The position numbers and the translations under genes were made by a program. Below are positions 9,342-31,542 of a stretch of DNA of 64,000 nt, piece by piece. The notes beneath the pieces are model-generated. The model had not been told where the DNA came from. It ran no database searches and saw nothing but the letters and a program-made list of their open reading frames with translations. The first letter of the stretch is position 1. Each line of letters starts with the position of its first letter. The DNA comes from an uncultured Lentisphaerota bacterium. GTDB taxonomy: Bacteria > Verrucomicrobiota > Lentisphaeria > Victivallales > UBA1829. The stretch covers positions 1 through 64,000 of the forward strand of contig ONQZ01000011.1 of NCBI GenBank assembly GCA_900320095.1, read 5' to 3'.

Positions 9342-11576
9342 TTAGAGGGTATCTTCGTCCGCCGGTTCGTCCGCGGCTTTGTCCTGCGGCTTGTCGTCGG
9401 CCTTCTGTCCGGCCTGTCTGGCGTTCGGCCTGCCGGGGCCCTGCATCGCGCCGGGGGCGGACATGCCGCCCATGCCGGGAGTCATGCCGGGACCCTGCAT
9501 TCCGCCGGGAACAGGTCCGGGGATCGTGCCGGGAACGGTTCTGGGGCCGCCGGGCCCCGCGCCGGGGATCGTCCGGGGACCGGTGCCGGGGATGTTGGTC
9601 CTGGGGCCAGCGCCGGGGATCGTGCCGGGGATCGTGCCGGGGATCGTGCCGGGGATCGTGCCGGGGATGCCGGGGCCCATGCCGCCGGGGCCCATGCCGC
9701 CGGGGCCCATCATGCCGCCGCCTCTGCCGGGGATCATGCCGGGTCTCCATCCCTGACGCGGGACGGTCGGGCGGATGGTCGGGAATCTGGGCTGGTTGCG
9801 GTCGGACGCGGTTTCCTCCGCGGGCTTGGACGCTGTTTCCGTGGCGGTGCCGTCCTCGTTCTGGATATACCGCGGGATGTAGCTCAGCAGGCTTTCATAT
9901 TTTTTTGCGAAGTTGGCATTGGCGGAGAAGACGTCCGTGATGCCGTTCCTGGAAATTTCGGCGAGCTCGCGGACGGCGGGTTCATACCCGTTCGCCGCCG
10001 CCTCGTGAAGCAGGATCAGGGCGATCATTTCATCCTTTTCGACCTTGAAATTCGTATCGCCCTTCATGAAGATCCTGGAAAGCGCCATTGCGGCGAGGGG
10101 GCTGGTCTGGATGGAGCGGAACGCCGGGTCGAGGCTGGTGGGGTCGTATTCCTCGCCTTCGACCTTTTCGAGCTCCTCGAGGTAGGCGTTGAAATAGCTC
10201 GGATACTTGAGCTTGTAGTCGTGCTGGACGAGCATGTCGGTGTACTTCTGCGCGAGTTCGGGCACAGGTTCCGGCACACCGTAGCGCGCGCCGCCGCGGG
10301 TGTAGAGCTTGACCAGCAGGTCCATGGAGGTCACGTGGCCTTTTTCGGCTGCCTGGATCATGTAGTCGAGGGACTTCTTGAAGTCGCGGCTCTTGTTGTC
10401 CGCGCCGCCGGAACGGTAGCAGACGGAGAGCGTGTAGAGCCAGTCGGGATCCTCGGGGTGCGGATCGAGTTCGAGCGCCCAGATCATGCGGGCGTATTCG
10501 CGGCTGCCGGCCTCGCGGAAATAATCCTCGACGGCGAGGAAATAACCGGCGTTGGACGCCATGTGGAGGCGTTCGAAATAGTCGGTCTGCGCGCGCTTGT
10601 CGAACTGTTTCAGACGCACTCTGCCGTCCTTGAATTCCTTCGCCTTCAGGTAGATGTCCTCGGCGGACCAGCTCATCTGGACGTTGTCGCGGATCACCTT
10701 GCGGGCGTTGCGGAGGTCGTTTGCGAGGACGTTGAACTTGAAGAGATCGTAGGGATCGTTCTTCTTTTCGGCGAAGCGGAGCATGCGCTTTGCGGCGGTC
10801 TCGCGCGTCTCGGCGACGGTCGAGGCGAGCGCGAGGTCGTAGTAGCCGTAGCCTTTTTCCTCGTCAATGGGGATGAAGTTCTTCCCGAACGTGTAGATGT
10901 CGCCGAGGTCGATGGCGGCCTTCAGGTCGCCGTAGCGGACCGCGAGCTCGTAGATCTCGAGGGATTTCTGGACTTCCTTCGGGAAGATGTTGCCGGAAAA
11001 GGTATTGCTGGCGAGGAAGTAGGCGGCCACGGGGTCGCCGGCGCGCGCCTTGCGTTCCAGGAATTTCGAGAAATCGTTGACCTTGTCGGCCGTGCGGAGC
11101 ATGGCAATGATCTCGGGGATGCGCTTCTCGTTTCTCGTGAAGACGTCGAAGAACTCGAACATCGCGGCGTCCGGGTTTGCCTTGACCCCGATGGAGTCGA
11201 CGCCCTTCAGGAAAATGCGTGCGAGGGCGAGGCGCGCCTTTTCGTTGTGGACGGAGGCGAACAGGTAGTAGCGGAACGCCAGATCGAGGTTGGGCTGTAC
11301 GCCTTTGCCTTTTTCGTAGCATTCGCCGAGCATGTTGTGCACCTCGAAATACTGATCGACGGTGAATTCCCTGGACGGCGGAAGTTTTGCGAGTTCGAGC
11401 AGATACTCGAAAGCGGTCTTCTGTCCCGCCTGAAGGGAGCCCGCTCCGGAGAGACGGGAAACGGCAAACTGATAGCGAGCGGAGATGCTTCCCGCGTCGG
11501 GGGGGCGCTGCGCATAGAGTGCGGGCGCGAGCAGCGCGGCACAGCAGATGGCGGTCAAAGTCTTGGTCTTGTTCAT
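9342..11576 (-). CDS. Secreted Sel1-repeat protein with Pro/Gly-rich C-terminal tail
   Basis: 744 aa from the ATG at 11576; a GTG two codons earlier is less likely because GAGGTG then sits too close. A signal peptide ends at Ala-Leu-Tyr-Ala-Gln. Residues about 50-580 are helical Sel1/TPR-like repeats (for example FEVHNMLGECYEKGKGVQPNLDLAFRYY, split by longer insertions), a scaffold for protein binding. The last 150 residues are extremely rich in Gly, Pro and Met, with tandem Gly-Thr-Ile-Pro units, then an acidic Asp/Glu/Ala tail. It sits directly before tolB in an operon, so an envelope role near Tol-Pal is plausible. The family of the full-length protein is not recognised. Confidence 0.82.
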   Translation of the reverse strand: MNKTKTLTAICCAALLAPALYAQRPPDAGSISARYQFAVSRLSGAGSLQAGQKTAFEYLLELAKLPPSREFTVDQYFEVHNMLGECYEKGKGVQPNLDLAFRYYLFASVHNEKARLALARIFLKGVDSIGVKANPDAAMFEFFDVFTRNEKRIPEIIAMLRTADKVNDFSKFLERKARAGDPVAAYFLASNTFSGNIFPKEVQKSLEIYELAVRYGDLKAAIDLGDIYTFGKNFIPIDEEKGYGYYDLALASTVAETRETAAKRMLRFAEKKNDPYDLFKFNVLANDLRNARKVIRDNVQMSWSAEDIYLKAKEFKDGRVRLKQFDKRAQTDYFERLHMASNAGYFLAVEDYFREAGSREYARMIWALELDPHPEDPDWLYTLSVCYRSGGADNKSRDFKKSLDYMIQAAEKGHVTSMDLLVKLYTRGGARYGVPEPVPELAQKYTDMLVQHDYKLKYPSYFNAYLEELEKVEGEEYDPTSLDPAFRSIQTSPLAAMALSRIFMKGDTNFKVEKDEMIALILLHEAAANGYEPAVRELAEISRNGITDVFSANANFAKKYESLLSYIPRYIQNEDGTATETASKPAEETASDRNQPRFPTIRPTVPRQGWRPGMIPGRGGGMMGPGGMGPGGMGPGIPGTIPGTIPGTIPGTIPGAGPRTNIPGTGPRTIPGAGPGGPRTVPGTIPGPVPGGMQGPGMTPGMGGMSAPGAMQGPGRPNARQAGQKADDKPQDKAADEPADEDTL
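9613..9672. repeat. 12-bp tandem repeat (CCGGGGATCGTG) in the Sel1/Pro-Gly gene
   Basis: Four perfect adjacent copies start at 9613, 9625, 9637 and 9649, followed by a partial copy at 9661. On the coding strand each unit encodes Gly-Thr-Ile-Pro. Related imperfect units flank it. Such perfect in-frame repeats are prone to length change. Confidence 0.9.
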
Positions 11577-28306: not shown

Positions 28307-28384
28307 ATAGCAAGCGGAAGCTCAAAACCGGAAACAAGCATCCGGCGGATGTCCGGTGAAAACAAACTTCTTTCGGAGGTAAGA

Positions 28385-30313
28385 ATGAGAAAGCACGTCG
28401 AAGTCTTTTCCGTCCTTCATGGAGAAATAGCCTTTACTCCTGAACAGCTGGAGTATTATGATATCCGGTACAGATTTAAGGAATTGGCCGAAAAAAGCCG
28501 TCAGCTTGCGCTGGATGAGTTTTCAAGGAAATTCAGGAGTTTCTCCGACCTGACCAGCGGCGCGGACAACTGGGTCAACGAGTATCTTGTTCAGGGGGCT
28601 ACGCTCGCCTCGAAGATCCTGGCGGAAAACGAGCATTACGATCTGGACCCGGCACAGTTCGTGAAGGAGTTTTTTGACATGTCCCGCCTCGACGCCGCCG
28701 TGTCGTACATGAAGGTGTTCGAACAGAAACCGGCTCAACAGACATCAAGTCCGGTACAGGCGGATGACAGCGTGGAGAAGATAGACGCTTCCGATGCGGC
28801 GGAGGAAAGAAAAGATGCCGACGAAACCGTTGAGGCGACAGGAAAGGCGGATGCGAAAGAGGTCAATCCGACCGATACTGCTCTTTCCGGCACATTCAGG
28901 CTGATCGGACGTTCCTGCGAGGACAATCGGCAGAAAGCCGAGCTGGACAAGTTCTGTGCCGACAGGAAAACGTCCCAGGTGTTTGCCGATGCGATTTACA
29001 ACAGCCTCGCCAACATGTATCTTGACCTGTTCAAGTACATCGACAAAAAGTGTCCGGCGATCAGCATCGTCTGCCTGAAAGACGAGGATGTCGCCAAGGC
29101 GGATCTGCTGCTCTCCAACATCATGAACGGCATCATCCCCCCGGAAAAGATCGAGGAACAATGCCGCAGGATCCTGTCCCTGAACCCCCTGCTTGTGAAC
29201 GCGTACGCATATATCATTGAAAAGTACCCGGACGAGATCGCCCCGGTCGTCAGGGTCGCGAACTTTTTCAACGTCACCGAAGTCAGGGACATGCTGTTGC
29301 GGAAACTGGATGAGTTTTACAAGACCTTGTGCGTCGATACGGAAAATGACGTCTGGGAATCGCAAAAGAAAATGGCCGAATATGCGAAGAAGATCGGCCT
29401 GGAGGATTATAACGGATATCCGGTGCTTGACAAGCTGGCGGCGGAGTTCGACCGGATCGCCCGAACCGTCGGCCCCAAAGAGTTCGAGACAAGGGAAGAG
29501 GCGCAGAAGCAGCGTCAGGCCTACGAGCTGTATCGGTCTTCCGGTTTTACCTCTTCGGAGGAAAAGGCGCAGACCGCCCGGCAGCAGCTGGATGAGCTTG
29601 CCAAACGCGACTCAATTGACATATCCTGGCTGATGGAGGACATCGACAAGGCGCTGAAGCATTTCGACGAGCTCGCCAGAACAGCTTTTGATTACATGTA
29701 CAAAACGAGGGAGGATTGCCGGCGGGCATCCGAAGACGAGGCATTGTTCTTCCTGGCGGTGTGGTCCCGGATCAGCAGATACGTCAAAAAGAACGGGATC
29801 AAGGCGTTCAGCAGCTACAGCGCCTCGGTGCAGAGCACGGCACGCAAGACGATGAATCTGGAAGACGACACTCCCGTCTTCGCTTACCTGAACACGGAAA
29901 TGATCTCGTCCGGCAATTCCGGCCTGGCGTTTACGCCCAGGGGGATTTCTTGGAGCAACGGTTCCGCCCTGATGACGAAGCTCGCGACGAACAAGCTCTT
30001 CAAGGCGATCTTCTCCAAAAAGGCCGGCGAACTTGAGGAGAAGAATAAAATTCAGGCGTATGACATAAGCTGGAAAGCCTTCCTGACCTCGAAGGCTTCT
30101 TTGGATGGCAACAAGTCCGATGTCATCCAGCTGGATCAGGACAAGATGTTCGAGGCGTCCCACATGAACGAGAAGGCGCTGAAAGAGGTACTGACGCAGC
30201 TTCGCGAATGGGCGCGGAAGACTTCCATTGCGTTCACGGACGGCGACAAGCCATTTGCGATGGACGATTTGCAGACCGAAGTCAAGACAACGCCGCTTCC
30301 GGTGCTCAAATAA
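28385..30313 (+). CDS. 642-aa cytoplasmic protein of unknown function
   Basis: Starts at the ATG at 28385 behind GGAGGT (4-base spacing), the best Shine-Dalgarno in the window; the earlier in-frame Met is not needed. No signal peptide or membrane helix is present. It is mostly helical and charged, with a low-complexity Asp/Glu/Ala/Thr region at about residues 120-160. A possible compact domain sits near residues 505-600, where FAYLNTEMI, then LAFTPRGISWSNG and IQAYDISWKAFL, recall the strand pattern of small domains sometimes attached to J-domain or zinc-ribbon proteins. That likeness is weak. Base composition is visibly lower in GC than neighbouring genes. It is monocistronic with its own promoter and terminator. 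It may be laterally acquired. Confidence 0.8.
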   Translation: MRKHVEVFSVLHGEIAFTPEQLEYYDIRYRFKELAEKSRQLALDEFSRKFRSFSDLTSGADNWVNEYLVQGATLASKILAENEHYDLDPAQFVKEFFDMSRLDAAVSYMKVFEQKPAQQTSSPVQADDSVEKIDASDAAEERKDADETVEATGKADAKEVNPTDTALSGTFRLIGRSCEDNRQKAELDKFCADRKTSQVFADAIYNSLANMYLDLFKYIDKKCPAISIVCLKDEDVAKADLLLSNIMNGIIPPEKIEEQCRRILSLNPLLVNAYAYIIEKYPDEIAPVVRVANFFNVTEVRDMLLRKLDEFYKTLCVDTENDVWESQKKMAEYAKKIGLEDYNGYPVLDKLAAEFDRIARTVGPKEFETREEAQKQRQAYELYRSSGFTSSEEKAQTARQQLDELAKRDSIDISWLMEDIDKALKHFDELARTAFDYMYKTREDCRRASEDEALFFLAVWSRISRYVKKNGIKAFSSYSASVQSTARKTMNLEDDTPVFAYLNTEMISSGNSGLAFTPRGISWSNGSALMTKLATNKLFKAIFSKKAGELEEKNKIQAYDISWKAFLTSKASLDGNKSDVIQLDQDKMFEASHMNEKALKEVLTQLREWARKTSIAFTDGDKPFAMDDLQTEVKTTPLPVLK

Positions 30314-30371: not shown

Positions 30372-30428
30372 CAGGGGAAGAACGCGGTCGCGAACGGCAA
30401 AGTGAAGTTGCGCAAATTCAGTTTGCCT

Positions 30429-30469
30429 GCATCTGTGCGGCGACGTCGGCGATGATTTTGTCGAGGGGG
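30429..30469. repeat. 41-bp direct repeat, distal copy (old 3' end of the epimerase gene)
   Basis: Identical over 41 bases to 30588-30628, which lies inside the epimerase gene. On the minus strand it would read Leu-Asp-Lys-Ile-Ile-Ala-Asp-Val-Ala-Ala-Gln-Met, then Gln-Ala-Asn and a stop at 30418-30420. It looks like the original end of the gene. Confidence 0.92.
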
Positions 30470-30587
30470 GGAGGCGGAGCCTCCACTGCGGAAGTGTCCG
30501 GCTGCGCTCGGACACGATGAAAAGGCAAATGCTGTGTGCGCGAGCGAAGCCGCGCAGAACCTCAGTGGAGGACTTGTCCTTCTCCGC
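30470..30587. mobile_element. Small palindromic element between the 41-bp repeats
   Basis: 118 bases. Nine-base inverted ends CCTCCACTG (30480-30488) and CAGTGGAGG (30563-30571) enclose two strong hairpins: GTGTCCG/CGGACAC (30494-30500, 30509-30515) and TGCGCG/CGCGCA (30537-30542, 30551-30556). A further AGGAC/GTCCT hairpin lies at the right end (30569-30573, 30576-30580). There is no room for a transposase. The element supplies the present stop codon of the epimerase gene. The unit of duplication (element plus one 41-bp copy) is 159 bp. Confidence 0.6.
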
Positions 30588-31542
30588 GCATCTGTGCGGC
30601 GACGTCGGCGATGATTTTGTCGAGGGGGAGTTCCGCCTTCCAGCCGCAGATGCGTCCGATCTTGGTGCAGTCCGGGGCGCGGTGGAGCGTGTCCTCGAAG
30701 CCCGGCTCGTATGCCTTGTCGTAGGAAACGACCTCGATCTTCGACTTGCTGTGGAGCTGGTCGATGACCGTTTCCGCGAGCTGGCGGATCGTGATGCGGT
30801 TCGTGCTGCCGATGTTCAGGATCTCGCCGAACGACGCCTCGCAGTCCGGGAGGAGCCGGAGCGCGCGGACCGTGTCTGCCACATGGCAGAAACACCGGGT
30901 CTGTTCGCCGGTGCCGAAGACGCGGAGCGGTTTGCCCTGAAGCGCGGCGGAGACGAAACGCGGAATGACCATGCCGTAACGCCCTGTCTGGCGCGGGCCG
31001 ACCGTGTTGAAGAAGCGCGTGACGGTGCCGGGGAGGTTTTTCGAGCGGTGGTACGCCATGAGCAGGAACTCGTCGATGAGCTTGCTGCAGGCGTAGCTCC
31101 AGCGGGAATGCGTGGACGGGCCGATGATGAGGTCGTCGGTCTCGTGGAACGGCACGGAGGCGGATTTGCCGTAGACCTCGCTGGTGGACGCGACGAAGAT
31201 GCGGCGTCCGCCGAGCTTGTCGGCGAGCTTCAGGATGCGGCTGGTGCCGGAGACGTTGGTCTCGATCGTGCGGATCGGGTCGTGGACGACCAGCTCGACG
31301 CCGACCGCTGCGGCCAGATGATAGACGATGTCCGCCTTTTCCATGAGCCGGGGCAGCGCGCGTGAGGAGATCACGTTGCCTTTGACAAACTCGACGCGCT
31401 CCCGGTGCGGGAGATGCCTGAGGTTGTCGAGCGAGCCCGTGGAGAGGTCGTCGATGATGGAGACGCTGTGGCCGTCCTTCAGCCAGGATTCGGCGAGATG
31501 GGAGCCGATGAACCCGGCTCCGCCCGTGATGAGGATATTCAT
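30562..31542 (-). CDS. NAD-dependent sugar-nucleotide epimerase/decarboxylase (extended SDR)
   Basis: 326 aa from the ATG at 31542, which overlaps the pssA stop by 4 bases; the longer frame into pssA is false. The Rossmann motif is LITGGAGFIGSHLAESWL, the NAD ribose-binding Asp is in IIDDLSTG, and the active site is Ser-Thr-Ser-Glu with Tyr-x-x-x-Lys in WSYACSKLIDE. The substrate region RFFNTVGPRQTGRYGMVIPRF is typical of UDP-glucuronate decarboxylase and UDP-glucose/GlcNAc 4-epimerase relatives. It would make an activated sugar for envelope glycans. The last eight residues (after Ala-Gln-Met) come from an inserted palindromic element. Confidence 0.9.
   Translation of the reverse strand: MNILITGGAGFIGSHLAESWLKDGHSVSIIDDLSTGSLDNLRHLPHRERVEFVKGNVISSRALPRLMEKADIVYHLAAAVGVELVVHDPIRTIETNVSGTSRILKLADKLGGRRIFVASTSEVYGKSASVPFHETDDLIIGPSTHSRWSYACSKLIDEFLLMAYHRSKNLPGTVTRFFNTVGPRQTGRYGMVIPRFVSAALQGKPLRVFGTGEQTRCFCHVADTVRALRLLPDCEASFGEILNIGSTNRITIRQLAETVIDQLHSKSKIEVVSYDKAYEPGFEDTLHRAPDCTKIGRICGWKAELPLDKIIADVAAQMRGEGQVLH
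30588..30628. repeat. 41-bp direct repeat, copy inside the epimerase gene
   Basis: Perfect match to 30429-30469, 159 bases away. In the gene it encodes Pro-Leu-Asp-Lys-Ile-Ile-Ala-Asp-Val-Ala-Ala-Gln-Met near the C-terminus. Confidence 0.92.

Follow-up and report, generated by a model that had tools for sequence, protein, structure and literature searches.

What gives a gene two 3' ends? This question is raised by an NAD-dependent epimerase/dehydratase gene in the window (the whole 64,000-nucleotide stretch analysed here, in contig 79 of a metagenome-assembled genome). A repeat search recovers a perfect 41-bp direct repeat (100% identity) with a spacing of 159 bp, at exactly the two positions given in the initial annotation of this DNA (Table 1); no further copies with up to three mismatches occur elsewhere within the window, and none occur in shuffles. 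The differing ends of the two copies are likewise borne out: the epimerase reading frame continues from the inner copy into the insert, where it acquires the altered C-terminus QMRGEGQVLH*, whereas the in-frame codons past the outer copy are Gln-Ala-Asn and a stop codon (30418-30420, minus strand). The 118 bp enclosed by the copies (30470-30587) contain no gene and fold far more strongly than shuffled versions (z of -5.05 and -4.10), as expected of the structured, non-coding element first described. That element had been taken for one palindrome; it is instead two inverted units of a dispersed family of 46-48-bp two-hairpin repeats, 20 bp apart. The end of HP1 (the first hairpin) of unit A is flush with the outer 41-bp copy, and HP1 of unit B is fused to the end of the epimerase gene, whose stop codon comes from CTC-CAC-TGA of unit B. 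As read from the translation, the insertion has replaced the last epimerase residues with ..RGEGQVLH*.

Table 1. Features at the 3' end of the epimerase gene (window positions).
Feature	Position	Strand	Basis
Probable original gene end, last codons and stop (..QAN*), outside the insert	30418..30428	-	sequence; compare QMRAN*, QMQAD* in relatives
Outer 41-bp copy	30429..30469	-	repeat search
Unit A: HP1 GGAGGCGGAGCCTCC, spacer ACTGCGGAA, HP3 GTGTCCGGCTGCGCTCGGACAC	30470..30515	+	R1 covariance model, 72 bits
20-bp spacer separating inverted units A and B	30516..30535	.	sequence
Unit B, sense to the epimerase	30536..30587	-	R1, 42 bits at 30536-30585; translation
Inner 41-bp copy, coding, epimerase 3' end	30588..30628	-	repeat search; single copy in relatives
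NAD-dependent epimerase/dehydratase gene, 326 aa	30562..31542	-	PF01370, PF16363

Searching all 80 contigs of the genome (2.75 Mb, 92.7% complete) with the insert returned 58 matches, each of which, apart from the insert itself, spans about one half of it. Aligned, the matches give a 46-48-bp unit made up, in order, of HP1 (GGAGGC-loop-GCCTCC, with variants including AGGACAAGTCCT), the spacer ACTGCnGnA and another hairpin, HP3 (GTGCCCGGCTnCGCTCGGGCAC, also with variants), which is preceded by the tetranucleotide GTAG in 31 of 117 cases and GCAG in 26 of 117. This unit is the mobile part, present in the window as a pair. The covariance model R1 identifies 139 units in about 103 clusters of this genome. 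At E<=1e-5 there are 66 units here and 43-111 in each of 11 of the 12 other genomes of the genus. The twelfth, which belongs to a distant member, has none, and neither do 23 genomes from nine other genera of the family. Base-paired cells make up 94.1% of the stems, against 29-57% with slid partners, and covariation is 0.351, against 0.108 when shuffled, both values coming from a model-fitted alignment that biases them in favour; by these measures the two stems are maintained through compensatory changes. None of the Rfam 15 models matches the unit, a plasmid collection gave no match, and the family is undescribed in the literature searched, the coverage of which was limited. The genome is that of a rumen bacterium of the Victivallales/Lentisphaeria, and its closest named contigs are rumen assemblies, for example RUG10770, RUG12541 and RUG11954. 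The initial annotation had asked for a search of genome and relatives, allowing that no other copy might exist in any genome; the many copies found clearly dispose of that concern. The best reading of the family is as an undescribed, genus-restricted, REP/MITE-like mobile palindrome.

The same locus in relatives bears directly on how the two gene ends arose. In ten close relatives the epimerase gene (87-96% identical) has a single 3' end, terminating in QMRAN*, QMRGN*, QMQAD*, QIRGN* and others, and the downstream DNA examined contains no unit; the site is thus empty, and the insertion is specific to the lineage of this genome. Simple tandem duplication of flanking DNA, the alternative named at the outset, is ruled out for the window by the same single copies without a unit. 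Since the 41-bp copies are identical although this stretch varies between species, we infer that the insertion is recent. Comparison of about 20 other unit sites in three relatives found the same stop codons empty, occupied by a similar unit or occupied by a different one. One stop-codon site in relative G030 (L185) holds a fourfold tandem unit array, and at L396 and L395 (G025), as at L185, at least four tandem units or half-units lie near a stop codon. All of this evidence comes from metagenome-assembled genomes.

A further proposal, that other gene 3' ends might be repeated around such palindromes, also holds. About a dozen further clusters lie between long direct repeats (19-78 bp) whose sequences are unrelated among loci; the duplicated stretches are mostly gene 3' ends or terminator arms and differ nearly everywhere. 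Because each is the sequence of its own locus, the stretch was duplicated at the target. The original 159-bp insertion survives as a lineage-specific insertion with a duplicated target 3' end and a new stop codon; the idea that the element carried the 3' end with it, in the manner of an att site, is not supported. A site-specific integrative element with a common att site, which would resemble tRNA-type elements in duplicating a target 3' end, was rejected: the 118 bp contain no gene, and there is neither an integrase nor a common att core, the duplicated stretches being unrelated between loci.

Across the 103 clusters of this genome the longest non-unit direct repeats are 45, 41 (the window), 37, 30 and 17 bp, with a 57-bp flanking repeat at L120 when mismatches are allowed; the top repeat score at 147 control gene ends without units is 15, and repeats of up to 36 bp occur at random positions inside some repetitive stretches. 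Flanking duplications are found at 6/103 clusters and 0/147 controls (Fisher P 0.004). This frequency evidence is modest, and the stronger evidence is the position of the copies relative to HP1: read in the orientation of the unit, one copy stops 0-2 nt short of HP1 at 12 of 13 loci (P about 3e-19 under uniform placement, the list of loci having been compiled by inspection after the pattern was noticed), and the second copy mostly starts 0-10 nt past HP3. Empty relatives have a single target copy at three other loci of this genome: L136, where the whole terminator is duplicated, the copies are identical over 37 bp and the insertion is common to one relative; L074, where a terminator arm is duplicated and one relative has an array at the site; and L067, where a gene 3' end is duplicated with a stop codon in each copy. 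More duplicated loci come from relatives (L323, L434, L363, L420, L421, L411 and L379), and terminator arms are duplicated at L136, L074, L421, L411 and L379. The pattern is one of recurrent, variable-length target duplication, much longer than usual, and the 41 bp of the window is one case of it.

Several loci fit this pattern less well. The 45-bp repeat at L075 is itself a dispersed palindrome that also occurs near units in relatives (L363, L340, L320), which makes L075 and L363 weaker evidence for target duplication. This second palindrome, CTAGTTTCAGTTAAAACAAACTCCTTTTAACTGAAACTAG, is often close to units (in the 1900-2400 region of L075; also L363, L340 and L320), and in L075 a 27-bp minisatellite (ATGGATTACACTCTGACGGTTTTGGGG) adjoins it. 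At L067 and L323 the divergence of the copies close to the unit exceeds what would be expected of a fresh duplication, and the array L362/L292 of a relative resembles plain tandem duplication of target-unit modules. About 95 of the 103 clusters have no flanking duplication, including near-consensus units directly after stop codons, so that either duplication is not obligatory or those copies have another origin.

The placement of the units relative to stop codons was determined with codon-usage gene predictions on the stretches around all units. Of 45 full-length sense units, 33 lie -26 to +2 nt from a stop codon, negative distances meaning that the unit itself provides the stop; among the 25 usable cases, 14 begin 0-2 nt past the stop (0.93 expected). 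Antisense units never do so (0/40) and mostly lie 4-26 nt beyond it. Stops are supplied by TGA of TGAGGC, by TAG in the HP1 loop, or by CTC-CAC-TGA in the spacer, the last used both by the epimerase and by a gene at contig 72:14188. Just 4 of the 139 units are within genes. Terminator-like hairpins are often found 3' of units, which are thus probably located in 3' UTRs, and a sense unit right after a stop codon is probably transcribed and would then, like E. coli REPs close to stops, form a 3'-terminal mRNA hairpin.

We consider it probable that two non-autonomous, mobile palindromic units of this REP/MITE-like family, in inverted orientation, recently inserted into the epimerase 3' end. The case is made, at the level of sequence, by a dispersed repeat with conserved structure, empty sites, a duplicated gene end of 41 bp, a stop codon supplied by the unit, and HP1-flush duplications that recur. 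The main rival, which we regard as possible and distinctly less probable, is slippage or BIME-like tandem amplification, in which a unit already stood beside the gene, the target-unit module was duplicated as the hairpin stalled replication, and one unit was then lost, so that the duplication would not derive from insertion. Tandem target-unit arrays do exist in relatives, with periods of about 80 (L362, G029), 82 (L323/L321, G026) and 112 (L434, G026), as do tandem units without target, and the 3' ends of rayt genes have been drawn into BIMEs in four cases (PMC2817692). The (target-unit)n modules of L362, L323 and L434 show that tandem amplification occurs too. However, the window and three other loci of this genome have one element and two target copies where relatives lack the unit and have the target once. 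Insertion gives this pattern, and slippage would require an additional exact loss. Insertion with duplication is accordingly preferred for the window because the relatives are empty. In the unit-target array L323, L321 of G026 the outermost gene end reads SLKVSE* and the inner SLKISQ*, as if from another allele.

In form and location the nearest known elements are REPs. The units share with REPs, BIMEs and REPINs a high copy number, palindromic structure, position at gene 3' ends, inverted pairs, tandem arrays and perhaps a GTAG-like tag, and they qualify as many dispersed short extragenic palindromes; the differences are the 46-bp two-hairpin unit, the long flanking duplications, sense copies flush with the stop and the lack of a RAYT found with them. 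The termini of REPs are known to provide stop codons (PMC3733652), and those of E. coli that lie no more than 15 nt from a stop codon are cited in PMC12306157 as stalling ribosomes; the units likewise place a hairpin right after the stop, mostly at a spacing of 0-2 nt. An ordinary REP family dispersed by a RAYT (Y1 transposase), with the 41-bp repeat incidental, would account for the GTAG or GCAG before HP3, for an HP3 that can be drawn with a bulge, and for inverted pairs and 3'-end placement. We nevertheless think it improbable: the Y1 transposase (RAYT, PF01797) was not found in this 92.7%-complete genome, Y1_Tnp matches elsewhere in the genus are sporadic, none of the Y1 loci retrieved from relatives has a unit beside it or is flanked by the repeat, and larger target duplications are not made by IS200/IS605-type elements (PMC2817692). 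With no detectable RAYT and a two-hairpin unit, we do not class the family as a RAYT-type REP.

In behaviour, going by described features and length, YPAL/RU-2 of Yersinia appears nearest, a palindromic miniature insertion sequence of about 168 bp with 3-26-bp target duplications (PMC2229807). Both are palindromic, non-autonomous and intergenic, with target duplications of variable length; in both, targets include or border on dyad symmetry, occupied as well as empty sites are known, and transcripts upstream may be affected. The duplications beside dyad symmetry are here those of the terminator arms at five loci. YPAL/RU-2 is, however, far longer than the 46-48-bp unit with its two hairpins and its duplications of up to about 40-78 bp. 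The short fixed-length target duplication of a MITE is not seen, the duplications being about 19-78 bp, variable, and absent from most clusters. Rickettsia palindromic elements are also palindromic mobile repeats that alter proteins (PMC2229807), but they lie in frame inside proteins, whereas the present units end the protein or come after it.

How the units move can be suggested only tentatively. They may insert or be copied into gene 3' ends and terminator stems, where a break with a wide stagger, or a change of template as replication passes the hairpin, could lead to repair that copies 20-75 bp of target; either route would yield target-unit-target, and unequal exchange between the target duplications could then produce (target-unit)n arrays. 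Reverse transcriptase and Cas1 genes were not found in this 92.7%-complete genome and, like Y1/RAYT, are patchy in the genus, so that none of the three emerges as the mobiliser. A mobile hairpin of 46-48 bp that invades terminators and the ends of genes while 20-75 bp of target are copied, moved by neither a known transposase nor a reverse transcriptase nor Cas1 and perhaps by replication or repair enzymes of the host that act on the hairpin, is a somewhat doubtful but conceivable account.

Two other explanations of the window are weaker still. Gene exchange, in which the gene end and unit of a related strain replaced the resident gene as far as the unit by homologous recombination, with illegitimate joining beyond and the resident end left outside, seems quite unlikely: the inner and outer gene ends are allele-like at L067 (ETASKQ* / EQTAQKQ*) and L323 (SLKISQ* / SLKVSE*), yet the copies are identical over 41 bp in the window, where species of the genus differ, and over 37 bp at L136, and terminator-arm duplications involve no coding allele. 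An assembly artefact, for which 80 contigs and a repeat-rich spot might speak, is very improbable given the short 159-bp period, the coherence of the gene and both flanks, and comparable structures in other genomes of the genus.

The epimerase insertion shows that units of this family move, or are copied, by unusual means, and illustrates a route by which genes acquire new C-termini. The family joins features that are usually separate: REP-like hairpins flush with stops, turnover of repeats at the same stop from one species to another, and long target duplications in which insertion has left its record. With a dozen related genomes in which occupied sites can be set against empty ones, the spread of small palindromes without a resident RAYT becomes testable. 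Elsewhere in the window, a predicted 654-aa protein without a Pfam match is encoded at 28349-30313 (+), between a permease gene and the epimerase; permease and epimerase are directly adjacent in four relatives (L034, L035, L036, L040), so the 654-aa gene may be a separate insertion. Positions 9504-9729 contain tandem GCCGGGGATCGT / GCCGGGGCCCATGCC repeats that are probably coding.
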